Of a stretch of DNA of 35,994 nt, positions 739-35,158 are shown one piece after another. Positions within the stretch are counted from its first letter, which is position 1. Each line of letters begins with the position of its first letter. Source of the stretch: a virus; IMG/VR virus record IMGVR_UViG_3300022200_000161, positions 1 to 35,994 of that record; one strand, 5' to 3'. The translations under genes were made by a program, and so were the position numbers. Below the pieces are notes generated by a model. That model was not told the DNA's origin, did not search any database, and was given only the letters and a program-made list of their open reading frames with translations.

Positions 739-746
739 CAAAGATA
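739..746 (-). promoter_or_regulatory. TATCTTTG promoter element (minus strand)
   Basis: On the minus strand this reads TATCTTTG, a perfect match to the Bacteroidota -7 consensus TAnnTTTG. It lies between the terminator at 748-779 and the ATG at 733, leaving only 5 nt before the start codon. No convincing TTG is seen at -33. The same octamer precedes genes at 1059, 18764 and 25692. Confidence 0.5.
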
Positions 747-747
747 T

Positions 748-779
748 AAAAAAAGAGGGCTACATTTCTGTAACCCTCT
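748..779 (-). terminator. rho-independent terminator (minus strand)
   Basis: On the minus strand an 11-bp stem (AGAGGG-T-TACA paired with TGTA-G-CCCTCT, with one T-G wobble) closes a GAAA loop and is followed by seven T residues. It lies just downstream of the 85-aa gene (802-1059) and ends its transcript before the promoter at 739-746. Confidence 0.85.
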
Positions 780-2702: not shown

Positions 2703-5700
2703 TTAGCTGTGCTTTTAGTTCGTCAATTTGAGCTTGCTGTTCCTTCATAGCTTCAATAAGTACACCTACTAGGTTACCGTAAGCTACGGAGTACATACCC
2801 TGTTCGTCTTGGCTTACAACTTCAGGCATAACCTCAAGCATCTCTTGCGCTATAACCCCTATAGAACGCTTCTCAGCACCTATCTTGTTGTAGCCTACAC
2901 CTCGCATAGCCTTAACCTTATCAAGTGCGTTAGGGATCGTTTCTACGTTCTCTTTAACACGAGCATCAGAGTAGGCAATCACATCACCTGTAGCACGGAT
3001 AGTACCGCTAACGTCAAGTGCGTATGATGGGTCTGTTCTTCTTACCCCTACGTACTGAGATGCATCTAGGATAAGCTTGTTACCTACAGCTCCTACTTTA
3101 GGGATGGTAGATGTAGAGTTGTCTAGGAATCCTACGTAAGAACCAGAGTCTGAAGAAGCTGTTAGTATACCGATGTCAGCAGTACCGCTAGAGACAGTTA
3201 GTTTGTATTGAGGGTTATTAGTCCCAATCCCAACGTTACCAGAAGAATCAATACGCATACGTTCAGTACCAATTGTCCCAAACGACAGATAACTAGATGC
3301 GCCACTAACACCTATAATTTGAGCAGCGCTAGATGGACCAAAATAAATTGCACTTCCGCTATTTGATAACTGTATGCTACCTCCAGTTACATCCAACTTA
3401 GCACCTGGATTAGTAGTCCCAATACCTACGTTGCCTCCAGATTTAAGATACAACGTAGAGCTGTTATTGGGAACGTCTATGAAATTAAAAATTCCTGAAT
3501 CTCCAAAATCAATTCTACCCTGAATAACATCTAGTTCATCCTTATATCTTAATTGAGCTGAATGTGAGCCTTTTAAATCTAATAAGGGTATACCACTTGA
3601 ATGAGTAGTTTCTAATATAAGATTAGCTCCTGTAGCACTACTAGACTCTATGTGTAATTTACTGTCTGGACTAGTAGTCCCGATACCAACGTTGCCAGTA
3701 CTAGTAATACGCATTCTCTCCTGGAAGCTTACATTAGCTTCGCCAGTATGGAATGTTAAAGATGCTTCTCCTTTAAAACTGCTATCATTAATTGAACGTA
3801 TTCTAGAAACAACACCAACTCCCCCTCCTGATGGGTCTGATTGATAAAAATCAATTGTACCTAAAATTTGATTTGCACCAAGACTTGCATCTGTATTGTA
3901 AAACTCTAGTAATGGGTCTTGTCCAGTCCCTGCAAAGTCTCCCGAGATTCTAGAAACACCATTTACATCCAACTTAGCACCTGGACTAGTAGTACCAATA
4001 CCTACGTTGCCAGATGTCCCATCAATCGTTAAACGTGTATTATTCCCAGCGTTAAATGTAAATGCGCTGGTGCTATTATTATATATTAACCCAGCGTGAT
4101 AATCATCATCCGTATCCCCCAATAACAACCCCGCAGTACCACTAGTATTTGTCTTAGCTTGAAAGTATGCAGCTGTTGTGCCTTGTATTCCTACCAATGC
4201 ACTATCATTGAAAGGGTCACCACTATCAGTACCAACTAATATATTTCCTCCTTCAACGTGTAACTTCTCACTAGGACTCGTAGTCCCAATACCTACGTTG
4301 CCAGTTCCTGATGGAATAATTCCAATACTCGTATTTGCACTGCTTGCTTCAAGCGTTACAAGACCACTTGATCCATAACTTAATGCACCTACTGAAGCTC
4401 CATTGTTCCCATACTTTATAACTCCGTTAACATCAAGTTTAGAAGACGGACTGATAATCCCGATACCAATTAAACCACTATCCCTAGTAATGGTCATATG
4501 CTTGGTAGCGGTTATTAAGTTTTCACCAGATGTTGCTTCGGCATCGTTGGGTCCAGTAAAATGCATCTTATTTGCCTTACCATCGTAGTAGATACCCATT
4601 GTGACATTTTGTGGGCTTGTGCCTAGGAGCTCAGTAAATGCAATACCACCACTCATACCCACTTCAGAGGTAGTTTCTCCAATACTCAATACTGGACCAC
4701 CAAAGTCTGCGTTTACAGTAGTTGTTTTTATTAATGTTAAATCTCCACGTACATCTACCTTAGCTAAAGGACTAGTTGTCCCAATACCAACATTGTTACT
4801 ATTGTTTATAGATACAACTGGTGAAGAACCGCTAGATTGATTACCAATTTCAAAATTGTAATGATTTGCTGTTCCGTAAATATTCTTACCAATCAACCAA
4901 TCCGTACCAGTATAAGCGCCAATATAAATAGCACTTGAAGTAGCTCCTACAGTAGCATTACTAAACTGAGCAGTAATATTTTGAGTGCCGTTTGCTGCTC
5001 CAGGTGCATTAACAGTAAGTTTTCTGGCTGGACTAGTAGTTCCAATTCCTACGTTGCCATTGTTTAATATCTTCAGTCTTGTATTCCAAGTGATAGCAGT
5101 TCCTGCTGTTCCTGATGCAGCGTTTCTATATGTTAATGTTCCATCAGCATTGTCAAGCCAAAAATCGTTTGCATAATTTGTGTTTATGTATGTGTCCTGC
5201 GCTGTTCCAGAATTATCTTTTACATAATAATTACCAGACAAGTGTGTATCTGAAGCACGACCCCATAAAGTTGTACCGTCTCCAATTTGAATACTATTAA
5301 ATGCAGACCACCAATCACTTTTTGGAGTTCCTATAGTCCCTACACTAGCATTACCCGAAACTTGTAGTTTCACAGCTGGACTAGTTGTCCCGATACCAAC
5401 GTTGCCACCAGATGAATTTATTGAAAGGTTCGTAAAAGCTGTTCCTTGATATACCGTCTGTATTGTACCGTAACCATTTCCAGTTGCATTGTATCCAAGT
5501 ATTAACTGCTTACCTAAACTATCATTACCTTCTATTACAAGAACCTCTGTTTGACCAGACTGTGCTACTACGTGTAGTCTTTTAAAAGGACTAGTAGTCC
5601 CAATACCTACGTCACCTGAAGCTTTTATAACAATACCATTATTTAAACTATCAGATGTATATAATTTTAGGTCTTGGTTAACATTGGTTCCGATACCAAT

Positions 5701-16306: not shown

Positions 16307-16333
16307 CAAATTTACTAAATCATTGATTACCAA
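16307..16333 (-). promoter_or_regulatory. promoter for fibre operon (minus strand)
   Basis: The minus strand reads TTG (16333-16331), 16 nt, then TAAATTTG (16314-16307), matching the Bacteroidota promoter pattern. The element ends 4 nt before the ATG at 16302. It overlaps the 3' end of the portal gene. The plus-strand 15-mer TGCAAATTTACTAAA at 16305-16319 recurs exactly at 23368-23382. Confidence 0.55.
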
Positions 16334-18764
16334 TAAGTTGGTCAAGCATATCGTTTCCTGGCTCTTCTAGCTCTCCACGCTTACCTTGACGCTGAGAAAT
16401 CATCTTAGACTGCTGAGCAGCTTGCTTCTCTGTTCTGTCGTCTTTTCTATCTTCTTTTCTCATCTCAAGACCCTGTCTGAAAGCTCGGTCTTCTTGGCGC
16501 TCTTGCATATCAATAGAGCCTTTAATAGATTCTAACTGACCCTTGAGTTGATATTCTAATTGTAGTAGCTGAGCTTTTGCTTGAGCATCTGCCTGAATTT
16601 CAGCCAGCTTAGATTGTGTCTGAGCTTGGATTTCCTGCATCTTCGCCTGAGATGTAGCCTGAGCTGTCTGCTGATTCATTTGAGCTTGCATTTGAGAATT
16701 TTGCTGTGCAATTTCCTGTTGCATTCTCATACGCTTTTTACGTCTGATAATCAACAAACGCTCTGCTTGATCTACGTCTTTTAGTTGACGAATAGCAATT
16801 GCATCTTCTAAATCGATTTCCTTTTGAGCCAATGCAACCTGAATGTTTTGCTCTAGATAAGCTTTTTCAGTCTCATCCATTTCGGTTTGCACTTTAATGC
16901 CGAAGTTATACATAGGCAAGTCTCCGAATGAAGACAGTACTTGCATATTGGTTTTACCAATAGCTTTTGTATAAATCTGATAAAGAACCGAGTTCACTGG
17001 TATGATCTGCAAACATTTGACAATGTCTTCACATATCTTAGAATATAGATACATTGATGCATTTGTAATGTCGTAGATAGCGTTATTACCAGCTGCGATA
17101 GCTTGCTGACGCACACCAACTAATTGCTCTCCCTTAGGAGACGTTCCGTCCATTACTTCGTTAATACCTGTTGTATCACGGATAAGGCGGAGATTATGGT
17201 TGTAGATAGCAATAAGCTCATTGATATTGCGAATGCTATTATCCAAAGACCTAACTGGAGGGTTTTGAAATCCACCCTCCGGGTTTTTAGATCTGTAATA
17301 AAAGACCCCAGTCTGTTCATAGATGTCCTGAATATCTAATGGTTGTAGTTCTCCTCCACGTCCTAGCTGTACGTTTTCTAGACCTTCGATATCTACAATC
17401 AATCCATCAGGCTTAGCCTTTGCGATTGCTTGTTGTAGTTTAAGGTGAGAAAGCTGGAGTTGATCGGCAAAGCCAATAACAGATCCAACCAATGACTTAG
17501 GCATCATTCTACGTAGGTTTGTTGAAACCACAGAATAAGACAAACGTGCCTTTGTTAAGTCGTGTACGTTTCTAGGTATATTATTCTTTAGCCCATATCC
17601 GAACATATAATCTGTACCGATGATAAAGCTACCACCGTAAACAGTTGCGATGTTCATCGCTTTAGGCTTTCTGTCGAATACAGATTCCTTAGGAGGAGAA
17701 TACTCAAATCCTTTGTAGTAGAAGTTAGTGTTCCCAAAACGAGATTCCTTCTCTTCAAACATCATATCGTCTACAGAAAGGAATTCAAAGTCCATAACTT
17801 CTACAATGAATTCATCGTATCCATATGTCGTTCTATCTAGCGTAGCATCGTAGTATTTATAAGAAAGCTTATCAGCACGGTTTTGATATTTACTTTTTAC
17901 CTTCTGAGCGATCTTTTCATATTGCTCTTCTGTAAAGCTATCACGAGCAATACGTTTAAGCTCTGAGATGCTAATCTTCTTGATGTGCCCTGCGTATATA
18001 AGGTCGCTAAATGTAGGGTCTTCGGTGTAGCTATGGAAGAAGTATGCTGGATCGATGTACTCTTCTGTAATTCCATAGTTTGGGTCGTTATTTCTTTTAA
18101 CAACACCCATACCGCAAGTAACTAAATCTGTTACTACTCTACGATATACACGCTGATCAAAATCGTTCCACTCTAGCGTCATATTGGTTCCAACTTGAGC
18201 TGCAATTTCTGCAGCTGTCTTCACATTGGAATCCATAAAGATTTCAGCTTCCTCTGGAGTTTCTGGTATGTCTTGTGTATCCATACCGGTATTGACTCCT
18301 AGACTGTTTAGCTGATTAATTAGTTCTTTGTTCTTTACTTTGAACATTTGCTCTGCCCGCTTCTGGTCTTTTTCAGACTGCGAGAGCGGATCAATGGCAG
18401 TAACATTTGGATACGGTTTTCTAGAGAGAATGTTATTTACAACAATCTTTACGAATTTAGGTACGATAGGTACAGGCGACCAGTCCAAATTAAGCAAAGT
18501 ACCGTCTCCACTATTGGGGTCCAAAGAGTTAAGAATCTGCTTGTAGATAGAAGTGTCTTGCGTACCATTTGCGTAATCACGGTTAGTTTCAAAGTCTTTT
18601 AATCTTCGTCTAAATAAACTGCGTTCATCATCAGAATGACCCCATTGTTTTTCAATGGCTTTGGCATATTTCAGTCCGTAAGGAACAGATGCCTTAATTC
18701 TATTTTGTGCAAATGGATCGGGGAAATTACCATACTTCCCTTTATCGTTGTTTTCGTTGTACAT
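16320..18764 (-). CDS. portal protein
   Basis: An 814-aa protein encoded directly downstream of TerL. It forms the dodecameric vertex ring through which DNA is packaged and ejected. The evidence is length, position and portal-like segments: an N-terminal helical part with WSPVPIVPKFVKIVVNNIL, a central part (YRRVVTDLVTCGMGVVKR...PAYFFHSYTEDP) and a long crown region (TGINEVMDGTSPKGEQLVGVRQQA). Residues about 690-790 are a very long Gln/Ala/Met-rich coiled coil (QQNSQMQAQMNQQTAQATSQ onwards), as in the large portals of crAss-like phages. The gene is preceded by a TATCTTTG element at 18791-18798. Confidence 0.92.
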   Translation of the reverse strand: MYNENNDKGKYGNFPDPFAQNRIKASVPYGLKYAKAIEKQWGHSDDERSLFRRRLKDFETNRDYANGTQDTSIYKQILNSLDPNSGDGTLLNLDWSPVPIVPKFVKIVVNNILSRKPYPNVTAIDPLSQSEKDQKRAEQMFKVKNKELINQLNSLGVNTGMDTQDIPETPEEAEIFMDSNVKTAAEIAAQVGTNMTLEWNDFDQRVYRRVVTDLVTCGMGVVKRNNDPNYGITEEYIDPAYFFHSYTEDPTFSDLIYAGHIKKISISELKRIARDSFTEEQYEKIAQKVKSKYQNRADKLSYKYYDATLDRTTYGYDEFIVEVMDFEFLSVDDMMFEEKESRFGNTNFYYKGFEYSPPKESVFDRKPKAMNIATVYGGSFIIGTDYMFGYGLKNNIPRNVHDLTKARLSYSVVSTNLRRMMPKSLVGSVIGFADQLQLSHLKLQQAIAKAKPDGLIVDIEGLENVQLGRGGELQPLDIQDIYEQTGVFYYRSKNPEGGFQNPPVRSLDNSIRNINELIAIYNHNLRLIRDTTGINEVMDGTSPKGEQLVGVRQQAIAAGNNAIYDITNASMYLYSKICEDIVKCLQIIPVNSVLYQIYTKAIGKTNMQVLSSFGDLPMYNFGIKVQTEMDETEKAYLEQNIQVALAQKEIDLEDAIAIRQLKDVDQAERLLIIRRKKRMRMQQEIAQQNSQMQAQMNQQTAQATSQAKMQEIQAQTQSKLAEIQADAQAKAQLLQLEYQLKGQLESIKGSIDMQERQEDRAFRQGLEMRKEDRKDDRTEKQAAQQSKMISQRQGKRGELEEPGNDMLDQLIGNQ

Positions 18765-18818: not shown

Positions 18819-20945
18819 TCAGCGTCTTATCTCATTAGTGTATCTACGGAAAAACTTCTTATCATCAAATGAAGATAATTTCTTTTCTTTCTTAACACGT
18901 TGAGCGGCAAGTAGCGCTAAGCCTGCGCTAATGGTAAGGTCAAATTTGGTTCGGTTATCTATTTTATATCCAATCCAGTCCTCTAATGTCCTATCAAAGT
19001 ACATTTTGCCCATCTCTCCTGATTCATTGTTAATGCCTACGTGTTCTTCAACATATGCCTCAATAGCGTGGGCGTGAGCCTGTATGACATCTTGCGAGTT
19101 AGATGGAATACCACGAGTCTTTACATTCTGAGATCCAGGTGTTTTGAGATGCTCCGGTCTCTTCATTACATACTCCTCGTAACCCCTTGATTCAAAGTAT
19201 CTTACGATGCCGTACTTGTTGTTTTCAATTAACAACGGATACCCATAAAATACAGCAGCCATAAGCACATCTTCATAGAAGATTCTAGCTAGTGGTGGGC
19301 GTGAAGCGTATTCAGCAACAAACATATTTGCCGGAGCAGCCATACTAAACTTATTATACATATGGCAAGCACCCTTAGAACCCCTGTTATCTACTGTAGA
19401 ATCTAAGTCATAGCTATCCACCCCACCGACTCCAATATGATCATTAGCTGGATATTTTTTATTTCCCTTAGTAACGTACTTGTTTTGAAGCTCCTCTGGA
19501 GGCAGCCAAGCAATCCGCCACCTACCCTGCGGGTTTGGGCTAAACATAACTTGTTTATCAGCCATACCATCCTTCCACTGAAAGTTTCCTCGTACCACAG
19601 GGTTCGGGTAAAGCTCTCTGTTGAATTCTATTTGCTCGTATATCTTACCAATATTAAATGTAGAACCCTCAATAGAATCACGCATCGCTTCATCAATGGT
19701 GAATGGGAACTGGCGAATAAATTCATTAAGCTCTCTTGCATCGTGCTTTAGAGCTTCTCTTTCGTTTTTGAGATAAGTTTTTGCACCAATATCGACATAG
19801 TCTCCATCAATCGTTCTAATCGGCATATTAGGATCTTCCACAATAGGGTTTCCATACTGGTCAAAGAACCCTTCAAGTGCTTCGTATGCAGGAATAAAAA
19901 GTCTATATAACCCTGTCTTCGTCCTTCCATTGGCATTTCTATCATTAGGATCGGAATCACGCCACAACTCTTTATATTGATTACCGCCTTTGTCCATAGG
20001 GTTTACAGTGCTACCCATCAAGCATTTACCGATAATCTTACGACCTACAATGAGACAAGTACGTTCAATTCGCCAAGCCTCTCTAATGTCTGTTGGCTTT
20101 TCCCATTTACCCGCTTCATCTAGGTACATAAGGTGAAGCTTCTCACCATCGTAAGCGTTGTTTGTAGTGTTCTTCCAGTTAATAATTGTATTGAGTGCTT
20201 CTCCTTTATTTGAAGTCTTATTCTTTTTAGTGATTCGTTTAGATGGCTCACGAAAAGCCAGTTCCATACGAGGGTTGGTAGTCCCGTCTTGAATCGGTTT
20301 AAAGAAGAATGGATACGACTTAAACATAGGAACCACCTTTTTCATAAAGATGTTTTCCTGTGCATCCTTACCTGTCTTAGACTGAATACCTAGTAGTTTA
20401 TCTTTTACTTGTGTAGCCTCGTCTACTAGAATAGCTGCGGACATATTTGTGTATCCAGAACGTCTACACTTAGTATACATCTGACCTATAGATCTTGGGT
20501 CAGCTTCACAGGCTGCAAAATGTATGAACAGCCTTCTTTGAAACTCCAAGTAAGATGCATATCCGATATCCATCTTACTCCACTGGAGCATCATATAGTG
20601 TCTTCCGGTAATATACGTAGGGACACCATTATTATAAAACCAGACACCCTCACGCCTGCGAATAAACTCCTTTTCGATGTACGAAGAAAACCTCTTTTTA
20701 AAGTCGTTTGGCATTTCATACCACTCATCCATAGAACGAATCCTACGCAACTCTTCAGGCACTGGGATTCTTTCCCACATCTGCAGTTCACGAGGTTTGT
20801 CGTGGAATAAGATTTCCTTTTTGCCGGGGGTCTTGGGAAGCTGAATATTAATTTCACCGATCTCAATGACCTCACCATCCGAATTGTTGGGACATATATT
20901 GATAACGTACTCATCATACCCTTCAACTTTCTTGAGACCAGCCAT
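18819..20945 (-). CDS. terL: terminase large subunit
   Basis: A 708-aa DNA-packaging motor with ATPase and nuclease halves. The ATPase part has a degenerate Walker A-like stretch at residues 158-166 (TKCRRSGYT; no GKS/T), a Walker B at 270-278 (LHLMYLDEA, with D276 and E277) and a coupling-type GST at 311-313. In the RNase H-like nuclease part the candidate acidic metal ligands are D510 in GVGGVDSYDLD, E574 in IENNKYG, and D669 in FDLTISAG. The segment GRHYMMLQWSKMD is typical of crAss-like and other Bacteroidota phage terminases. Its usual partner, a small terminase, is not clearly identified; the 98-aa helical gene upstream is the nearest candidate. Confidence 0.95.
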   Translation of the reverse strand: MAGLKKVEGYDEYVINICPNNSDGEVIEIGEINIQLPKTPGKKEILFHDKPRELQMWERIPVPEELRRIRSMDEWYEMPNDFKKRFSSYIEKEFIRRREGVWFYNNGVPTYITGRHYMMLQWSKMDIGYASYLEFQRRLFIHFAACEADPRSIGQMYTKCRRSGYTNMSAAILVDEATQVKDKLLGIQSKTGKDAQENIFMKKVVPMFKSYPFFFKPIQDGTTNPRMELAFREPSKRITKKNKTSNKGEALNTIINWKNTTNNAYDGEKLHLMYLDEAGKWEKPTDIREAWRIERTCLIVGRKIIGKCLMGSTVNPMDKGGNQYKELWRDSDPNDRNANGRTKTGLYRLFIPAYEALEGFFDQYGNPIVEDPNMPIRTIDGDYVDIGAKTYLKNEREALKHDARELNEFIRQFPFTIDEAMRDSIEGSTFNIGKIYEQIEFNRELYPNPVVRGNFQWKDGMADKQVMFSPNPQGRWRIAWLPPEELQNKYVTKGNKKYPANDHIGVGGVDSYDLDSTVDNRGSKGACHMYNKFSMAAPANMFVAEYASRPPLARIFYEDVLMAAVFYGYPLLIENNKYGIVRYFESRGYEEYVMKRPEHLKTPGSQNVKTRGIPSNSQDVIQAHAHAIEAYVEEHVGINNESGEMGKMYFDRTLEDWIGYKIDNRTKFDLTISAGLALLAAQRVKKEKKLSSFDDKKFFRRYTNEIRR

Positions 20946-24965: not shown

Positions 24966-25450
24966 CCTACAAAATCAAAATTTCTATACGAGATACTTAC
25001 CGATTCCCCTTTCTCCAAAGCCTCAGCAATAGCAGGGTAAATTCTTTTATATGCATTGCCAGACGAACCAATGAAACCATCGCTATCACCAAAATTCGTT
25101 TGTTGACTATCACCAACAATGAGACACCCAGCAGTGTGTTCGTCAGTATTACCAGTATGAATAAGGATATACTCAAAGCCAGGCACATCACGTACCCATA
25201 ACATTCCTTTGTGCATCTCCCCATACTTCTTTAAATATCTTCCGTGAAATCCTCCAGTCGTCCGGAGAGTAATCCGATATGTTCCAGAAGGGATTCTTGT
25301 CTCCCCTGCAACTTTATCCTCTCGATGTTCGTCCTCAAGCGTATAGCATAAGAACCGTCTCTTACCTCCTGTAACGTCAAATAATAATCCATTGGTTGAA
25401 TCCTTCTGGCTGCTAAACCTCAATACCTCTAACTCCATTCCTCTCGTCAT
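24962..25450 (-). CDS. DUF5675 protein, candidate endolysin
   Basis: A 162-aa protein matching the DUF5675 pattern: LCYTLEDEHREDKVAGETRIPSG, GTYRITLRT and then VPGFEYILIHTGNTDEHTAGC-LIVG. The conserved His98, His105 and Cys109 in 'IHTGN-x4-HTAGCLIVG' resemble the His...Cys active site of L,D-transpeptidase/YkuD-type enzymes, which fits a peptidoglycan-targeted activity. It lies between a holin-like gene (4-nt overlap) and a spanin gene (4-nt overlap) and no other lysozyme or amidase is in the window, so it is the best endolysin candidate. The family assignment is from memory; the enzymatic role is inference. Confidence 0.8.
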   Translation of the reverse strand: MTRGMELEVLRFSSQKDSTNGLLFDVTGGKRRFLCYTLEDEHREDKVAGETRIPSGTYRITLRTTGGFHGRYLKKYGEMHKGMLWVRDVPGFEYILIHTGNTDEHTAGCLIVGDSQQTNFGDSDGFIGSSGNAYKRIYPAIAEALEKGESVSISYRNFDFVG

Positions 25451-25692
25451 TTCTTAGCAAATGATTCTAGACCCGCAATACCAAAACTACCAAGAGTCAC
25501 TATTACGAAAGAATTGTAAGTAAATTCATTAATCACTAAATCCTTACCAAAGAAACCGCTTCCAACATCTGCGATCATAACCAATACCATCACAGCAAAC
25601 GACATAAACCCAATAATGGTCTTCTCATTGTAACTGTTGTCGTTCTTAAAAATCTCCCCGAAGCTCATAATGCTCTTAATAAATCGTTTCAT
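25447..25692 (-). CDS. holin-like membrane protein
   Basis: An 81-aa protein with two probable membrane helices, about residues 26-46 (IIGFMSFAVMVLVMIADVGS) and 60-76 (SFVIVTLGSFGIAGLES), a basic N-terminus and a KK C-terminus. Size, topology and position at the head of a lysis cassette (holin, DUF5675 protein, spanin, each overlapping the next by 4 nt) point to a class II-type holin. Similar proteins are frequent beside DUF5675 genes in Bacteroidota phages. Confidence 0.75.
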   Translation of the reverse strand: MKRFIKSIMSFGEIFKNDNSYNEKTIIGFMSFAVMVLVMIADVGSGFFGKDLVINEFTYNSFVIVTLGSFGIAGLESFAKK

Positions 25693-25725
25693 AGTTAAAT
25701 AGTTGAATTACAATATATTATACTA

Positions 25726-25733
25726 CAAAGATA
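25726..25733 (-). promoter_or_regulatory. TATCTTTG promoter of the lysis operon
   Basis: A minus-strand perfect TAnnTTTG in the divergent control region, 34 nt upstream of the holin-like ATG (25692). It is the first promoter of the left-going late transcript. No TTG at -33. The octamer is identical to those at 739, 1093 and 18791. Confidence 0.55.
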
Positions 25734-25759
25734 CCATTTTGTTTCATACCGCTTTGGAG

Positions 25760-25776
25760 TTAAAGTAAAGCTTTAA
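25760..25776. promoter_or_regulatory. TTAAAG-N5-CTTTAA palindrome (site 1)
   Basis: A perfect inverted repeat with 6-nt arms and a 5-nt centre, placed between the minus-strand lysis promoter and the plus-strand promoter at 25780. The same arms and spacing occur at 26024-26040 and 32610-32626. Placement between divergent promoters suggests an operator for a dimeric regulator. Confidence 0.45.
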
Positions 25777-25779
25777 GTC

Positions 25780-25810
25780 TTGACAATGTCAAAAAAAAGT
25801 TGTAACTTCG
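25780..25810 (+). promoter_or_regulatory. plus-strand promoter for small RNA
   Basis: TTG (25780-25782), exactly 20 nt, then TAACTTCG (25803-25810). The -33 region is embedded in the inverted repeat TTGACAATGTCAA. The promoter at 32883-32913 has the same TTG-N20-TAACTTCG and the same TTGAnnATGTCAA block, which argues that both are real and share a factor. TAACTTCG deviates from TAnnTTTG at one position. Confidence 0.65.
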
Positions 25811-25984
25811 CTAAGTACTTAGTTAGTATACCAAAGACTAATGACATCATCATTAGTCCCCTTCACACTCACTCCGAGTCTACTGCGGTGGGCTTCCCAA
25901 AACGCCCCACCGCTCAGTTAAAATCCTTTCAGATTGACATCAAGGGCGCATCATATTCTTCCGACAAGAGTCGGTCTTTTGTTT
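25811..25984 (+). ncRNA. candidate phage small RNA (about 165-170 nt)
   Basis: A self-contained unit between a promoter and a terminator. It contains the 12-nt palindrome CTAAGTACTTAG (25811-25822); hairpin 1, GACTAATG (25836-25843) with CATTAGTC (25851-25858); hairpin 2, GCGGTGGG (25885-25892) with CCCACCGC (25906-25913); and a terminator hairpin at 25961-25974. An in-frame reading (77 aa to 26013, possible ATG at 25786) exists, but its start lies inside the promoter, upstream of the expected transcript start, so a protein is unlikely. No known RNA family is recognised. Function could be antisense regulation or sponging of host factors. Confidence 0.55.
25961..25984 (+). terminator. rho-independent terminator of small RNA
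   Basis: CCGAC (25961-25965), loop AAGA, GTCGG (25970-25974), followed by TCTTTTGTTT. Short stem but G/C-rich and directly followed by a T-rich tract. Confidence 0.65.
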
Positions 25985-26023
25985 GCCTATCCGATTCCAA
26001 ATCACCATCTTAAAACCACACAG

Positions 26024-26040
26024 TTAAAGTATCACTTTAA
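26024..26040. promoter_or_regulatory. TTAAAG-N5-CTTTAA palindrome (site 2)
   Basis: A perfect TTAAAGT-ATC-ACTTTAA inverted repeat, extended by ACA/TGT outside one mismatch. It ends 19 nt before the TTG of a plus-strand promoter candidate at 26060. Confidence 0.45.
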
Positions 26041-26059
26041 GTGTCAGAATACACAGGTC

Positions 26060-26090
26060 TTGAATTTTTATGCGAGTAATGTATATTTTG
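26060..26090 (+). promoter_or_regulatory. plus-strand promoter candidate
   Basis: TTG (26060-26062), 19 nt, then TATATTTTG (26082-26090), which is TAnnTTTG with one extra base. It would drive the first right-arm transcript towards the gene at 26452, with a leader of about 350 nt. Confidence 0.4.
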
Positions 26091-26451
26091 GGGATTATAT
26101 ACTATACTGCACGGTTCAGTTTCTAACCCAAAACAGATTATAAACCCCTACCCCCTTCCAACCTCTTAGCCAATTAGAAACTTTTAGGGTTTTTACTAGG
26201 CTTAGAGTTAAGGCTATGATTCTTGCTCGGTCTTACAGACCTCGCTATCAATCCCTTCCCTAAACCCTTAGAATTAAATCCCTTACTACTCTATGGAGAT
26301 ACTACACGAGGCTCCGACCACTTGCCGTCAGACCAGATATCTTTTTCCCCTAAAGGGAAAAAATATCTGAAAAACAACTTTTTTTTTCGAAAGTTTTGTC
26401 CCTCATTTGCAGTGTTCGACACCGAAGTCGGACATCAAAAACCTTTATGTT
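26091..26451 (+). other. long structured leader without a confident gene
   Basis: A 361-nt stretch with no ORF I accept. It contains pyrimidine-rich blocks, a GGTC-TTACA-GACC mini-hairpin near 26240, a strong 15-bp hairpin (26334-26369), a run of nine T (about 26380-26388), and a GTTCGACACCGAAGTCGG segment that can pair with itself just before the ATG at 26452. A plus-strand frame of 83 codons at 26223-26474 crosses the hairpin, has poor composition and overlaps the next gene, so I treat it as spurious. The stretch is best read as the 5' leader of the first early operon. Confidence 0.4.
26334..26369 (+). other. 15-bp hairpin in early leader
   Basis: CAGATAT-C-TTTTTCCC (26334-26349) pairs with GGGAAAAA-ATATCTG (26355-26369); a single C is bulged and the loop is CTAAA. 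A poly-T tract follows 11-12 nt downstream. It could be an attenuator, an RNase site or a stabilising leader structure. Confidence 0.55.
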
Positions 26452-26847
26452 ATGAAAGATTACACTTTCAGTGAGACTCTAGAGTTCAGAGTTAACCAAA
26501 TCAACAACGCTGTTTCAAAGAAACAGGCTCAATTCTTCTACTACAAGAAGTTTAAGAACTTACTAATCTGGAATCCAGACCTCAGCCCTGCTGAGATTGA
26601 GGCTTTCAACAAAGCCAACTTAGATTTACAATCTAAGTTGTTCGGTGATTCCCCTAAGAAGTCTTATCCTAAGACTTCTACTAAGCAACCAAGGGTTGCT
26701 TCGGCTGAAACCTCTAAATACTCACCGGAGGTGAGTAAGAATGGTCGGTCTAACAATCAAGCCAAACTAGATGCTATGATTGCTACTCTAAAGAGTAGCG
26801 CTGAGGGTATCCTTCACGCTATTGAGATAGCCGATACTATCAAGTAA
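26452..26847 (+). CDS. first early-region protein, unrecognised
   Basis: A 131-aa protein from ATG 26452 (MKDYTFSETLEFRVNQINNA). The frame stays open 15 codons upstream, but the GTTATG context favours this start. The N-terminal 60 residues are helical and aromatic-rich (QAQFFYYKKFKNLLIWNPDLSPAEIEAFNKAN). A Ser/Lys/Pro-rich, probably disordered linker follows (about 65-95), then a C-terminal helix (KLDAMIATLKSSAEGILHAIEIADTIK). No family recognised. It is the first gene after the control region, has a long structured leader and its own strong terminator, so it forms a single-gene transcription unit and may be a highly expressed early protein. Confidence 0.8.
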   Translation: MKDYTFSETLEFRVNQINNAVSKKQAQFFYYKKFKNLLIWNPDLSPAEIEAFNKANLDLQSKLFGDSPKKSYPKTSTKQPRVASAETSKYSPEVSKNGRSNNQAKLDAMIATLKSSAEGILHAIEIADTIK

Positions 26848-26854
26848 GACTTAG

Positions 26855-26882
26855 AGAGTCCCTTCGGGGACTCTTTTTTTTT
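26855..26882 (+). terminator. strong TTCG-loop terminator
   Basis: AGAGTCCC-TTCG-GGGACTCT followed by a run of T. A perfect stem with the very stable TTCG tetraloop, 8 nt after the stop of the 131-aa gene. Confidence 0.93.
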
Positions 26883-26900
26883 GTTTTTAATTCAAGTATT

Positions 26901-27167
26901 ATGATTGCTAATTGGAATAAGATAATTAATTCAGTGTCATCAGTTGATGCTAATGAGGATAATAGAATCAAAGAATCTATTAAGCGACAAGATTACAACA
27001 GAGATAGTAATCTAACTAAGGTAAGTAAGCCTAGTATAGGTCATCGGGTAAGCCAAGTTAAGCAGGCTAATAATATAGACCCGGTAAGAAGTAAGTATCT
27101 AAAGTCTAGAAGTAAGGCTCAGATAGATGACATAAGAGATGTATTGCTAAAGATAATAAATAGCTGA
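26901..27167 (+). CDS. basic hypothetical protein
   Basis: An 88-aa, Lys/Arg/Ser-rich protein (NWNKIINSVSSVDANEDNRI; KYLKSRSKAQIDDIRDVLLKII). The centre looks disordered and the C-terminus helical. No family recognised. It starts 18 nt after the T-run of the preceding terminator, and its TGA is separated by 1 nt from the next ATG (TGATATG). Confidence 0.7.
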   Translation: MIANWNKIINSVSSVDANEDNRIKESIKRQDYNRDSNLTKVSKPSIGHRVSQVKQANNIDPVRSKYLKSRSKAQIDDIRDVLLKIINS

Positions 27168-27168
27168 T

Positions 27169-27492
27169 ATGAATAGGTTTAGATTGAATAAGATAGGGTT
27201 AGGTGAAGAAGATGGTATTCAAATGGTAATATCATTGGATTGCTTTGACATAAGTATAGTAAGTCATAAGCATAGTTATGGTGGTGATGAGGGGCTATAT
27301 GAATTAGGTGTGTTTTGGGTTGATGAACCTGTATATTATAACGATACTAACTTCGATAGGAAAGAGTTTGTTAACGAGGTTGTAGGTTGGTTAGATGAGG
27401 AGGCGGTTACTGATAAGGTTAATAGGTTAATGTCGTTAGACCAATCAAGTAATAGTTTAGTGAGTGATATGTTAGATGTTTTAAGAGTATAG
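27169..27492 (+). CDS. acidic hypothetical protein
   Basis: A 107-aa acidic protein. The N-terminal half has beta character (IQMVISLDCFDISIVSHKHS...YELGVFWVDEPVYY) and the C-terminal half is helical (RKEFVNEVVGWLDEEAVTDK). No family recognised. It ends TAG-TT-ATG into the next gene, a junction used repeatedly in this arm. Confidence 0.72.
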   Translation: MNRFRLNKIGLGEEDGIQMVISLDCFDISIVSHKHSYGGDEGLYELGVFWVDEPVYYNDTNFDRKEFVNEVVGWLDEEAVTDKVNRLMSLDQSSNSLVSDMLDVLRV

Positions 27493-27494
27493 TT

Positions 27495-27800
27495 ATGACA
27501 ATAAGAGATGTAAAGAGACTGCAAGAGCAGTATGAGGTAGACTATTATCAAGATCTAATTGATAATGGTAATGCTTGGAAGATGGAAGGAGCGATAGGTA
27601 GAAGATGTATGGGCTATCTAAATGCTGGTGTTTGTTTCTTACCATTGGTAGACCACTATGATTACTGGGGCAATGAGATACCGAGTCGTAATAAAGTGGC
27701 TAATGGTAGTACAGGTAGTTTATCATTGGCTAAAGAGTTTTGGTCTGATGATATTAGGGTTACGGAGTATTTTGATTTAGAGAAACAATTATTTATTTAG
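27495..27800 (+). CDS. conserved phage protein of unknown function
   Basis: A 101-aa protein. The core 'LIDNGNAWKMEGAIGRRCMGYLNAGVCFLPLVDHYDYWGNEIPSRNKVANGSTGS' matches, from memory, a small family scattered across phages and prophages, with invariant GNAWK-EG--GR, a middle 'AG-C-L' and DYWGN-(I/V)PSR. No function is known. TAGTTATG junctions lie on both sides. Confidence 0.82.
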   Translation: MTIRDVKRLQEQYEVDYYQDLIDNGNAWKMEGAIGRRCMGYLNAGVCFLPLVDHYDYWGNEIPSRNKVANGSTGSLSLAKEFWSDDIRVTEYFDLEKQLFI

Positions 27801-27802
27801 TT

Positions 27803-28000
27803 ATGAATGCAAGAGAATTAATAGCGCAACTAACTCATTTAAGTGAGTCTAATGGTGTACACTTAGAAGATATAGAGGTATATTATAGGTTTGATTTTGA
27901 CTCAGATATAGAAGATGTAAACTATGTCTTTGAGGACATCTTTGACCAAGAGACTAATAGTGTATTGGAGTCGGTAGTATTAACAAATAAATCAGAATAG
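27803..28000 (+). CDS. small acidic hypothetical protein
   Basis: A 65-aa acidic protein (MNARELIAQLTHLSESNGVHLEDIEVYYRFDFD...). An N-terminal helix precedes a beta segment, which resembles small phage proteins of the form 'tvkeLi.~L.~lp.d.eV.v.yD', but the match is too weak to name. TAGTTATG at both junctions. Confidence 0.72.
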   Translation: MNARELIAQLTHLSESNGVHLEDIEVYYRFDFDSDIEDVNYVFEDIFDQETNSVLESVVLTNKSE

Positions 28001-28002
28001 TT

Positions 28003-28383
28003 ATGGGATTGGATATGTATTTAATGAAGCGAGTAAGAGTTAATAAAGATGAGGACTCGGTTGATACTGAATTAGTTTATTGGAGAAAAGCTAATGCTAT
28101 ACATAACTTCTTTACCAGCATTAAAGACCAACACGAAAGTTGTGAGTCTATTGAGGTTACTAAGGATATGTTAGGTATGTTATTAGATAGATGTACTATG
28201 GTATTAGAAGATAGGAGTAGGGCTGATGAGTTATTACCTACTACTAGTGGCTTCTTCTTTGGTAGTACTGAGTACGATGAGTGGTACTTTAAAAAGTTAG
28301 AAGATACAATAAGAGATATAACTCCTATACTATCTGATGGAGATATAAAAGATGGGGACTTGTACTACTTCGGTTGGTACTGA
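28003..28383 (+). CDS. conserved phage protein (MGLDMYL family)
   Basis: A 126-aa protein. It starts MGLDMYLMKR and contains YWRKANAIHNFFTS, a central helix (VTKDMLGMLLDRCTMVLEDR), then LLPTTSGFFFGSTEYDEWYF. These blocks define a widely distributed phage/prophage family without known function. The strictly kept YWRKANAIH and SGFFFGSTxYDExY suggest a binding or catalytic site. Last gene of a five-gene run; immediately followed by a large hairpin. Confidence 0.87.
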   Translation: MGLDMYLMKRVRVNKDEDSVDTELVYWRKANAIHNFFTSIKDQHESCESIEVTKDMLGMLLDRCTMVLEDRSRADELLPTTSGFFFGSTEYDEWYFKKLEDTIRDITPILSDGDIKDGDLYYFGWY

Positions 28384-28388
28384 GAATC

Positions 28389-28444
28389 TACATTGAGAAG
28401 AATTTTCGTTTGTACGAAGTACAAACAAAATTCTTTTCAATGTA
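28389..28444 (+). other. very long RNA hairpin after early operon
   Basis: Three 8-bp arms: TACATTGA (28389-28396) with TCAATGTA (28437-28444); AAGAATTT with AAATTCTT; and GTTTGTAC with GTACAAAC around a GAA loop. Together with a G-T wobble and one further T-A pair this makes about 26 base pairs with a single bulged C. It starts 5 nt after a stop codon. No long T-run follows (TAAAAAGGG), so it is not a standard terminator. Confidence 0.8.
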
Positions 28445-28480
28445 AAAAGGGAAGAAAGTTCGCCTTACCTTGAATGGAGA

Positions 28481-28497
28481 TGTCCGAAAGACGGACA
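28481..28497 (+). other. small hairpin in radC-like leader
   Basis: TGTCCG (28481-28486), loop AAAGA, CGGACA (28492-28497). It lies 25 nt before the ATG of the RadC-like gene. No canonical promoter is recognised between this and the long hairpin. Confidence 0.45.
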
Positions 28498-28522
28498 ACA
28501 ATACACAAATAAATTATATGTT

Positions 28523-28981
28523 ATGGAATTAAAGAAAGTATTTATCGGAGAAGCGGTAGTAGATTACAAGCCCGCTGATGTTGTTAATGAACTAGCAATT
28601 AGAAATAGTTCAACTGCTTATAAGATGTTCAAAGAAGTTATAGGCAATGAGATTAAAGAGAGAGAACTATTCTTAGTAGCCTATCTTAATAGAGCGAACC
28701 AAGTATTATGGACTGAGATAATGCACATTGGTGGTATTACAGGTACTCTTGTTGACAAAAGATTGATACTAAAGAAGGCGTTGGTTGGTAATTGTACTGC
28801 TATAATTGTAGCACACAACCATCCAAGTGGTGCTAAGCAACCTAGTGAGAATGATAGGAGACAAACTAAGCAACTAAAGAGTGCTTGTGATTTGCTAGAT
28901 ATAAGTTTGCTCGACCACATTATAGTAACCGAAGATGGTTTCTATTCCTTTGCCGACAATGGTGAAGGAAGTTTATCTTAA
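28523..28981 (+). CDS. radC-like: RadC-like JAMM-domain protein
   Basis: A 152-aa protein consisting of only the RadC/JAB (MPN+) domain. The zinc-site motif is complete: E48 in RELFLVAYL, H98-N-H100-P101, S108 and D111 (AHNHPSGAKQPSENDRRQT). It also has the family's GTLVDKR-x-ILKKAL and the closing 'LLDHIIVTEDGFYSF'. The N-terminal helix-hairpin-helix part of full-length RadC is absent, as in most phage, plasmid and ICE copies. Despite its name the family is not proven to act in DNA repair; a role in natural transformation or anti-restriction has been discussed. It forms a single-gene unit with its own terminator. Confidence 0.92.
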   Translation: MELKKVFIGEAVVDYKPADVVNELAIRNSSTAYKMFKEVIGNEIKERELFLVAYLNRANQVLWTEIMHIGGITGTLVDKRLILKKALVGNCTAIIVAHNHPSGAKQPSENDRRQTKQLKSACDLLDISLLDHIIVTEDGFYSFADNGEGSLS

Positions 28982-32609: not shown

Positions 32610-32626
32610 TTAAAGTAATACTTTAA
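32610..32626. promoter_or_regulatory. TTAAAG-N5-CTTTAA palindrome (site 3)
   Basis: TTAAAGT-AAT-ACTTTAA, with the same arms and spacing as sites 1 and 2 in the control region. It lies 25 nt before the ATG at 32652 and 2 nt after the GTGAAAC hairpin. Confidence 0.45.
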
Positions 32627-32882: not shown

Positions 32883-32913
32883 TTGATTATGTCAAGCATA
32901 CATCCTAACTTCG
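32883..32913 (+). promoter_or_regulatory. plus-strand promoter, twin of 25780
   Basis: TTG (32883-32885), exactly 20 nt, then TAACTTCG (32906-32913). It contains TTGATTATGTCAA (32883-32895), matching TTGACAATGTCAA at 25780-25792 in 11 of 13 positions at the same place relative to the -7 box. It starts 10 nt after the stop of the 73-aa gene. Confidence 0.65.
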
Positions 32914-32969
32914 GGATATCTGTATGCTCAGATGGGAGGGGCATCCAACAGCCCCCTCCCTCGTTATCC
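32914..32969 (+). ncRNA. candidate three-way-junction RNA or leader
   Basis: Directly after the promoter. The outer stem GGATA (32914-32918) with TATCC (32965-32969) encloses hairpin A, TCTG (32919-32922) with CAGA (32929-32932), and hairpin B, GGGAGGGG (32934-32941) with CCCCTCCC (32953-32960). An alternative pairing AGCATAC (32895-32901) with GTATGCT (32922-32928) overlaps the promoter and competes with hairpin A. No T-run follows, so it is probably the 5' leader of the gene at 33002 and not a terminated small RNA. Confidence 0.45.
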
Positions 32970-33001
32970 AATTAGGGTGTACTATATTCAATTAAATCTT
33001 A

Positions 33002-33352
33002 ATGGTTATGTTTTTAAACCGGTTAATGTTGTGGTTTAAGAAACCACTAGTTAGTTATCTTATAACTGACAATGATGTCCAAGAGATATGGACTGATTCC
33101 CAAAGGCGTACTGCTGACAACGGATTGATACTTGTAATCAAGTCTGATGTTAAAGGTACAGGTATAGTGTTCTACCGATTCTCAGATGAACGCTTTGATG
33201 GTGCAGACTTTATGAAGTATATGTCTACTACTAGAGGTGGTGCTGTGTACAATCACAATGGATACGGTACTAAAGTTTTGCTTGACAAGAAGTATAAGCG
33301 TATGTTTGGGTACTACCCTTCTAGAATTTATTTAAAGAGAATATATGAATGA
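33002..33352 (+). CDS. hypothetical protein
   Basis: A 116-aa basic protein starting MVMFLNRLMLWFKKPLVSYL. A second in-frame ATG at 33008 has the GTTATG context favoured in this arm and may be the true start (114 aa). The N-terminal 20 residues are hydrophobic and basic (possible amphipathic or membrane-associated helix). The rest is alpha/beta (DNGLILVIKSDVKGTGIVFY; KYMSTTRGGAVYNHNGYG). No family recognised. Probably transcribed from the promoter at 32883; its stop overlaps the next start by 8 nt. Confidence 0.72.
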   Translation: MVMFLNRLMLWFKKPLVSYLITDNDVQEIWTDSQRRTADNGLILVIKSDVKGTGIVFYRFSDERFDGADFMKYMSTTRGGAVYNHNGYGTKVLLDKKYKRMFGYYPSRIYLKRIYE

Positions 33353-33685: not shown

Positions 33686-33874
33686 ATGAAGATCACTAGA
33701 ATTATGAAGCATAAGATGTACGTAGACAAGTACATCACTGAATTAAGATGGGACATCATTAACGTATGTCTCAAGAACAATGGTATACTAGATGTTGATA
33801 GCAGTAATAAGATTACCGCTTCCTCTAGACTTATAAAGAAATACGAGCGTAGATTAAAGCTATTAAGATATTAA
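33686..33874 (+). CDS. small basic helical protein
   Basis: A 62-aa protein with Lys/Arg-rich ends (MKITRIMKHKMYVDKYITEL ... LIKKYERRLKLLRY). Possibly nucleic-acid binding by charge; no family recognised. The stop codon is immediately followed by the structured region 33875-34080. Confidence 0.7.
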   Translation: MKITRIMKHKMYVDKYITELRWDIINVCLKNNGILDVDSSNKITASSRLIKKYERRLKLLRY

Positions 33875-34080
33875 GAGGGGCTAACATAACTCTCCGATGT
33901 CTTGGGGAGTGAAGGTTATCCTGCCGTTATACATACACTGATGATAGTGGACGGTCAAGCTAAGCCCCTGCCTCTTTGGGAGGTCATTCATTAGCAAAGG
34001 ATATCAAAGACACTGAGGCGGTAATATATCATTAAACAAGTTCTTGGCTAATTTACTTGGATATATTAACCGCTTCTTTT
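33875..34080 (+). ncRNA. candidate structured non-coding RNA with terminator-like end
   Basis: A 235-nt gene-free gap with nested pairing. Closing stem AGGGGCT (33876-33882) with AGCCCCT (33963-33969) encloses hairpin A, ACTCTCC (33889-33895) with GGGGAGT (33904-33910, one wobble), and hairpin B, CCGT (33924-33927) with ACGG (33951-33954) topped by CACT (33936-33939) with AGTG (33946-33949). Then come CCTC-TTTGG-GAGG (about 33971-33983) and the 13-bp stem GCGGT-AATATATC (34018-34030) with GATATATT-A-ACCGC (34060-34073), followed by TTCTTTTAT. It could be a processed RNA, a leader/attenuator, or a regulated 3' end. No known RNA family recognised; no tRNA fold. Confidence 0.5.
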
Positions 34081-34316: not shown

Positions 34317-34611
34317 GATGAATGAAGATGGACTGAAGAAGTTCCGTAAAGTAATGAAGTTAGTGATACTGATGCAATGTACACTCGAACAAATGGACGA
34401 GATAAAAAACGTACCGCATCTGTACAGACAAGACATAAAGAAATCTCTGAATAACTTAGAGAAGAAGCTTGAGAGATTTACTACTCCACTAGTTAATAAC
34501 GCTATCCCCTTGGACCAAGAAGGAATCTTTATGCAGATTCAAAGAGGTGTAGATAAGATAGTAAATATGACATTAGAGGAAATTCACAATTTTGATTTAA
34601 ATGAAGACTAA
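34309..34611 (+). CDS. helical hypothetical protein
   Basis: A 100-aa protein, helical (KKFRKVMKLVILMQCTLEQM; YRQDIKKSLNNLEKKLERFT). A second ATG at 34318 is possible. It overlaps both neighbours (8 nt before, 11 nt after), so it belongs to the DnaA-IV operon. No family recognised. Confidence 0.75.
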   Translation: MTEMNEDGLKKFRKVMKLVILMQCTLEQMDEIKNVPHLYRQDIKKSLNNLEKKLERFTTPLVNNAIPLDQEGIFMQIQRGVDKIVNMTLEEIHNFDLNED

Positions 34612-35158
34612 GACTAATATGAACCTATTCTATGCTGACCAGTATAGAATGATGCAAGAGCTTTGGAAAGCTATTCAAACTGACAATCAAATAAAAGATA
34701 CCAGAGATAGAAGAAATGTAATTTACAGACATTCTTTTGCTATTGCTGCCGTTGAGATGACCACGCTTCCTATGGCTCAAATCGGTGGGATTATTAATCG
34801 TGATCACACCACCGTAGTACACGCTATGAAGAATAAGGAAGGTAATATATTGTACGATAAGAACTTTAGAAATATATACGATACCGTTTCCTCAATGGTA
34901 GCTGAAGCTATGTCTGTATATGATGAGACAGTCTCTGAATATGTAAGAAAGAAGATTAAAACAGCTAATCCTAAAATAGACATAGAGAGAATAATAGAAG
35001 AGAATAACAAGAGATGGAAGGCTAAGATTGCTAATTCAGAAAACAAATTAGAATTACTATCTAGAGAGAATGAAGTTCTTTCTAAAGAGCTGAAGATAAG
35101 CAATGCTAGGGTCAAGAGTATGAATAAAGAATTAATTAGATTAAAGAACCTGCTATGA
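34601..35158 (+). CDS. DnaA domain IV-coiled coil protein
   Basis: A 185-aa protein. Residues about 14-100 match the C-terminal DNA-binding domain (domain IV) of DnaA. Residues 42-76 carry the helix-turn-helix (HSFAIAAVEMTTLPMAQIGG and then the DnaA-box signature RDHTTVVHA at 67-75), compared with 'RDHTTVLHA' of bacterial DnaA. There is no AAA+ domain, so it cannot act as an initiator ATPase. Residues about 110-185 form a long charged coiled coil (ERIIEENNKRWKAKIANSEN; ELLSRENEVLSKELKISNAR). It could bind DnaA boxes in host or phage DNA, for example to recruit replication proteins or to block host DnaA. The reading is by eye; no search was made. Confidence 0.8.
   Translation: MKTKTNMNLFYADQYRMMQELWKAIQTDNQIKDTRDRRNVIYRHSFAIAAVEMTTLPMAQIGGIINRDHTTVVHAMKNKEGNILYDKNFRNIYDTVSSMVAEAMSVYDETVSEYVRKKIKTANPKIDIERIIEENNKRWKAKIANSENKLELLSRENEVLSKELKISNARVKSMNKELIRLKNLL

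Follow-up and report, generated by a model that had tools for sequence, protein, structure and literature searches.

The question raised by this locus is what function resides in positions 25780-25984 of the window, the term used herein for the whole stretch of DNA that was analysed, a viral contig of 35,994 bases. Its leftward genes include those of TerL (18819-20945) and the portal protein (16320-18764) as well as tail-fibre-like genes, and a block of small genes runs rightward from 26452. Both blocks diverge at a control region, 25693-26451, in which the stretch lies. A first-pass annotation had proposed that a small RNA is made there from a promoter of its own. Named phages with a related TerL are Elemovirus (Flavobacterium; 41% identical) and phages of Cellulophaga, Maribacter and Tenacibaculum, and uncultured phages from human faeces are weak TerL relatives. 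Elemovirus phages are in culture with Flavobacterium sp. BAL314. In one genome, G006, TerL is matched in two separate frames with an in-frame stop between them (26695-28804). The divergent region of an Elemovirus record (MT497078, 630-1745) exhibits two leftward promoter-like sites of the type TTG-N-TATATTTG, with a long non-coding stretch behind each; GTTAAAG repeats lie upstream, and the annotation consists partly of tiny ORFs. Among relatives that share the control region, identity at the DNA level is 96% in L004, 78% in L005, and about 70% in L006 and L020. Among 50,697 phage records compared at the DNA level, no relative spanning the predicted transcript (RNA1) was found.

The Bacteroidota-type promoter of the first-pass annotation is present as an exact sequence match, TTGAC..AAAAAAAAGTTGTAACTTCG, on the plus strand at 25780-25810. 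It follows the pattern TTG-N20-TAACTTCG, with TTG at 25780-25782 and TAACTTCG at 25803-25810. Exact copies of this pattern on both strands of the window occur only at 25780 and 32883; with up to one mismatch, two are found compared with 0.78 expected. The 19-mer AAAAAAGTTGTAACTTCGC of this promoter is also found in 31 stretches of bacterial genomes (one genome per species), 28 of them Bacteroidota by record title. The bacterial matches usually lie just 5' of a start codon, with an apparent tRNA gene in one case, and this placement supports a transcription start near 25811-25818. Judged by its sequence, the element is a real host-type (Bacteroidota) promoter. Hence RNA1 has a promoter of its own, as is expected of an independent phage small RNA.

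RNA1 is a predicted structured noncoding RNA on the plus strand at 25811-25984, with its probable start at about 25811-25818 and its probable end at about 25980. Its 5' hairpin (25836-25858, GACTAATGA/TCATTAGTC) comprises 9 bp and not the 8 bp initially claimed; relatives carry a hairpin at the same position that differs in sequence. The G/C-rich hairpin, also claimed initially, was found at 25885-25913. This hairpin, named P2, contains a bulged C and a CYCAAA-like loop and is supported by covariation. It is followed by the small hairpin P3 (25921-25936, AATC..GATT), which has one compensated pair in alignment A4, and by the conserved segment AGGGCGCATCATAT (25943-25956), whose GGCG(C/T)A is kept in all window-like sequences. 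A conserved AGGCGCAnnATAT segment is also part of RNA1. The unit is closed by a hairpin at 25961-25974 followed by TCTTTTGTTT, together forming a weak intrinsic-terminator-like element with a U-rich tail (25961-25984) that occurs in every window-like relative. Thus, the hairpin and tail of the proposed U-tailed terminator were recovered, but its stability of -6.9 kcal/mol (-5.6 to -6.9 kcal/mol in relatives) makes it a weak one, far below the intergenic terminators of the same phages (-13 to -24 kcal/mol). Folding of 25811-25980 yields -45.0 kcal/mol, compared with -29.1 +/- 3.6 kcal/mol in dinucleotide shuffles (z = -4.4), of which one in 200 was as stable.

A conserved protein frame was looked for in the homologues and is absent, in agreement with the earlier statement that no credible protein is encoded and as is expected of an independent phage small RNA. 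An ATG frame of 26-32 codons is confined to the three closest sequences, and some window-like relatives have no frame above 18 codons. A coding explanation of RNA1 was dropped because its reading frames are unconserved in homologues. As the first-pass annotation had stated, RNA1 belongs to no recognised RNA family: neither the window nor any of ten relatives scored above a gathering threshold in Rfam 15, and at E up to 10 the best window matches all lie outside RNA1. Eight further loci gave only two Pistol self-cleaving ribozymes, elsewhere in L170, a phage contig related to the window (RF02679, 68 and 52 bits; 2193-2267 and 3732-3795, both on the minus strand). A further non-coding stretch of the window, 33874-34050, is predicted to form a four-way structure with a closing stem GGGGCU...AGCCCC and a CTCCGATGTCTTGGGGAG hairpin; it is partially conserved in L257/L125, L123 and L135, has a z-score of only -1.7 in the window and is without an Rfam match.

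Comparison of the window-like sequences indicates that RNA1 is conserved as a structured RNA and not as a protein. Constant among them are the promoter core, P2, the terminator and the motifs CGCTCA(C/G)TT, ATTRACA and GGCG(C/T)A; the remainder varies. Covariation was scored on hand-written alignments, in which N serves as a placeholder in loops of unequal length and the register is the author's choice; on this basis RNA1 alone exhibits three pairs altered on both sides (score 0.127 compared with 0.055; two of 500 shuffles as high). Taking P2 of RNA1 jointly with the equivalent hairpin of a second predicted transcript, RNA2, gives five pairs altered on both sides (22 cells) and a score of 0.495, compared with 0.150 +/- 0.035 in shuffles, none of 500 being as high. 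Shifting the partner strand by 1-3 columns reduces the score to at most 0.171. Covarying pairs in related phages, which the first-pass annotation had named as a check, are thus found, above all in P2.

RNA2 is the predicted untranslated leader (32914-33001, plus strand) of the ORF 33002-33352. It lies behind the other exact TTG-N20-TAACTTCG promoter of the window (32883-32913, plus strand) and contains a hairpin at 32934-32960 and a AGGGTGTACTATATT segment. R1, a covariance model built on the RNA1 core, gave weak second sites in L135, L105 and L123 (E of 0.001 to 0.011, a rough value). These are located about 6-7 kb downstream, after a TTGA..TAACTTCGG promoter and just 5' of a start codon, and L125 likewise carries an RNA2-type site. 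A scan for bulged-C hairpins with a GC-rich outer stem, which also returns a few unrelated hairpins inside genes, recovered the RNA2 site in the window as well as in L257, L135, L123 and L105, and in each case the loop is C-rich and then A-rich. The bulged hairpin has one further occurrence per genome, behind the sole other promoter of the TTG-N20-TAACTTCG form. The sharing of this hairpin by RNA1 and RNA2 suggests a protein ligand in common, and the position of RNA2 directly 5' of a gene suggests that the hairpin may act in cis there. Matches to the P2 pattern in viral contigs beyond the known members are without promoter or 3' motif and were judged to be chance; L136 was discarded as a chance match as well.

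Beyond the window, the promoter core AAAAAAGTTGTAACTTCGC is identical in 49 viral stretches, and in nearly all of these about 100-170 nt of structured sequence follow. A TerL homologous to that of the window (67-90% identical) is encoded by 22 of 26 promoter-bearing contigs, and GTTGTAACTTCGC occurs in exactly one copy in each of 24 contigs. Selection by promoter was avoided by sampling 80 loci by TerL alone. Sufficient upstream sequence was available for 24 of these, and 16 of the 24 show a promoter of the RNA1 type with a structured non-ORF stretch by the author's count, mostly 3.6-6.5 kb from TerL. RNA1-type units fall into the subgroups A (window-like), B (the largest), C, D and E. The model R1, built from the window subgroup, detected RNA2 weakly (E 0.001-0.01) and left RNA1-like units of the other subgroups undetected; a single covariance model for all subgroups was dropped, as the RNA sequences are too divergent to link. 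The 3' ends of subgroups look related by eye (GTTGTATTACGGAGCATTGTATCC in L150, AAAGGCGCATAGTATCC in L108). Pairing of the 5' end with the stretch before the 3' motif is clear in L150, L167, L187 and L209 (83 of 20,000 permutations overall). This terminal helix is absent from the window subgroup, B, C and E, and for this reason it was dropped as an RNA1 feature. The subgroups are therefore united by place, promoter and layout, and not by one proven consensus structure. The RNA1-type terminator was seen in window-like relatives only and in none of the other subgroups, so there the transcript could continue into the next operon. The units look like a new RNA family that is widely shared in one marine Bacteroidota-phage lineage.

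RNA1 is flanked by two predicted operators. Operator 1 is the palindrome AGTTAAAGTAAAGCTTTAAGT at 25758-25778; it directly abuts the RNA1 promoter and separates it from a leftward late promoter, whose -7 element (TATCTTTG; 25726-25733, minus strand) reads into a small gene at 25447-25692. Operator 2, AGTTAAAGTATCACTTTAAGT, lies beyond RNA1 at 26022-26042. Both are AGTTAAAGT..ACTTTAAGT-like palindromes of the TTAAAGTnnnACTTTAA type, and a third copy is located at 32610. Operator 1 is kept in L098, L105, L117, L125, L135, L140 and L151, and operator 2 has a counterpart in L105, L117, L135, L140 and L151. The two palindromes are likely regulator-binding sites. Farther rightward, 26090-26451 is conserved and untranslated and includes GGGGATTATATACTATA, a AGATATCTTTTTCCCCTAAAGGGAAAAAATATCT hairpin and a TTCGACACCGAAGTCGGA hairpin immediately before the ATG at 26452; it is possibly a replication origin or an early promoter region. 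At the other end of the window (739-779), the U-tract of a strong terminator passes straight into a TATCTTTG promoter box, and only a few bases separate this box from a start codon; the whole is a compact terminator-promoter unit. Terminators lie at similar places between the late genes of G014.

The cassette of operator, promoter, RNA and operator does not keep one orientation. It points toward the early genes in the window, L105, L117/L154, L125 and L135 and toward the late genes in L140 and L151. Relative to TerL, the RNA runs away from it in subgroups A, C and E and the same way in B and D. The late-facing forms, including group B, possess a separate TAnnTTTG box (TATCTTTG, TACCTTTG or TATATTTG) before the first late gene, resembling the late promoter that the window has at 25733. 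Since the place is kept and the direction is not, an autonomous RNA gene is an easier explanation than the leader of one operon. This flip is the main argument from which we infer that RNA1 acts in trans.

The preferred reading, to which we give a probability of roughly one half (about 0.48), is that RNA1 is an autonomous, operator-controlled phage noncoding RNA serving as a trans-acting protein-binding site. The host primary sigma factor would transcribe it early from the strong Bacteroidota promoter, and a regulator bound to the two flanking TTAAAGTnnnACTTTAA operators would control both RNA1 and the adjacent late promoter. RNA1 would then act in trans, with its bulged-C hairpin as the putative binding site of a host or phage protein. 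The matching hairpin in the leader of the early gene 33002 is probably another site of the same protein, in which case RNA1 would compete for the protein or deliver it. This reading draws directly on the structured noncoding conservation, the promoter type, the palindromes, the orientation flip and the shared hairpin. The earlier designation as a phage small RNA holds insofar as RNA1 is noncoding, structured, conserved, preceded by a host-type promoter and located in the main control region; a 3' end at 25980 and an action on host mRNAs or proteins stay at the level of proposals. Independence of the unit is favoured by the cassette facing either neighbouring operon across relatives, and the RNA2 hairpin leaves room for a cis leader. 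A role as antisense to phage genes was dropped, since a duplex scan against phage gene starts (with no accessibility term) returned nothing recurring between two genomes. A more elaborate version, in which the flipping cassette encodes a fast-evolving trans RNA that captures an RNA-binding protein and the hairpin copy in the early mRNA is the regulated target, is regarded as doubtful; we know of no comparable control circuit for phages.

Other explanations share part of this evidence. RNA1 and RNA2 may be cis leaders of two early operons, acting by put-like read-through of terminators or by attenuation at 25961-25980. Two similar hairpin-bearing leaders do follow the only two promoters of the TTG-N20-TAACTTCG form, as in HK022, where two similar put RNAs lie behind early promoters (PMC9378689). 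The early operon, moreover, holds three strong terminators between its genes (26853, 28991 and 29938), conserved in G014, each 16-28 nt from the next start codon and with no promoter box seen there. However, subgroup C, whose RNA faces early operons, has no terminators within these operons, late operons hold terminators whichever direction the RNA points, and the next gene in late-facing lineages has its own promoter box. Terminator placement thus does not consistently track the direction of the RNA, the three early terminators being a feature of the window and G014, and cis leadership is considered rather unlikely as the explanation of both RNAs.

It is less probable still that 25780-25984 matters mainly as DNA, either as a genetic switch made up of the promoter and operators or through a transcript priming replication at 26090-26400, with the hairpins secondary. 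The palindromic operators on both sides of RNA1, the conserved AT-rich non-coding stretch downstream (26090-26400) and a DnaA-like protein encoded nearby (34601-35158) would suit such a role, but the compensatory changes in P2 maintain a bulged RNA stem with a constrained loop, which a DNA-level role does not need, and a P2-like hairpin recurs in RNA2. Hardly any weight is given to a short conserved peptide from 25780-26013 with incidental hairpins: the 77-codon open frame with a TTG start that would encode it overlaps the promoter, and neither its length nor its frame is kept in window-like relatives.

To return to the preferred reading, a trans-acting RNA1 would open a way to study how gene expression is taken over or timed by these phages; a cis-acting one would extend put-like elements beyond Proteobacteria. 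The lineage is well represented in environmental metagenomes, and its RNA1, without an Rfam entry, sits at the early/late switch between palindromes. Its conserved parts are short and testable in a cultured flavobacterial host. To our knowledge, small RNAs of Bacteroidota-infecting phages are barely described; no RNA of this kind in phages of Bacteroidota was found in the open-licence literature.

Three known systems come closest. The oop RNA of phage lambda is a short noncoding transcript antisense to the adjacent gene. RNA1 is likewise a short noncoding unit with a promoter and a terminator-like hairpin in a divergent control region, but it overlaps no gene and has no recurring complementary phage target in the duplex scan. 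Sequestering RNAs of the CsrB/RsmZ type carry many GGA-bearing repeats. RNA1 resembles them as a noncoding RNA that has a hairpin in common with an mRNA leader; it differs in having one such hairpin instead of many GGA-bearing repeats, and its protein partner is putative. Put-type antiterminators bind the zinc-binding domain of the β' subunit and act only in cis. In HK022, the two similar put RNAs are about 70 nt long with two stem-loops each (PMC9378689). Like putL and putR, RNA1 and RNA2 are structured RNAs after early promoters, with two similar copies per genome and bulged hairpins (PMC9378689); the likeness is one of layout, with no sequence relation claimed. In contrast to put, RNA1 has a weak terminator behind it, and the positions of terminators do not track it. 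Finally, put acts in cis on the polymerase that transcribed it, whereas the RNA1 unit faces different operons across relatives.
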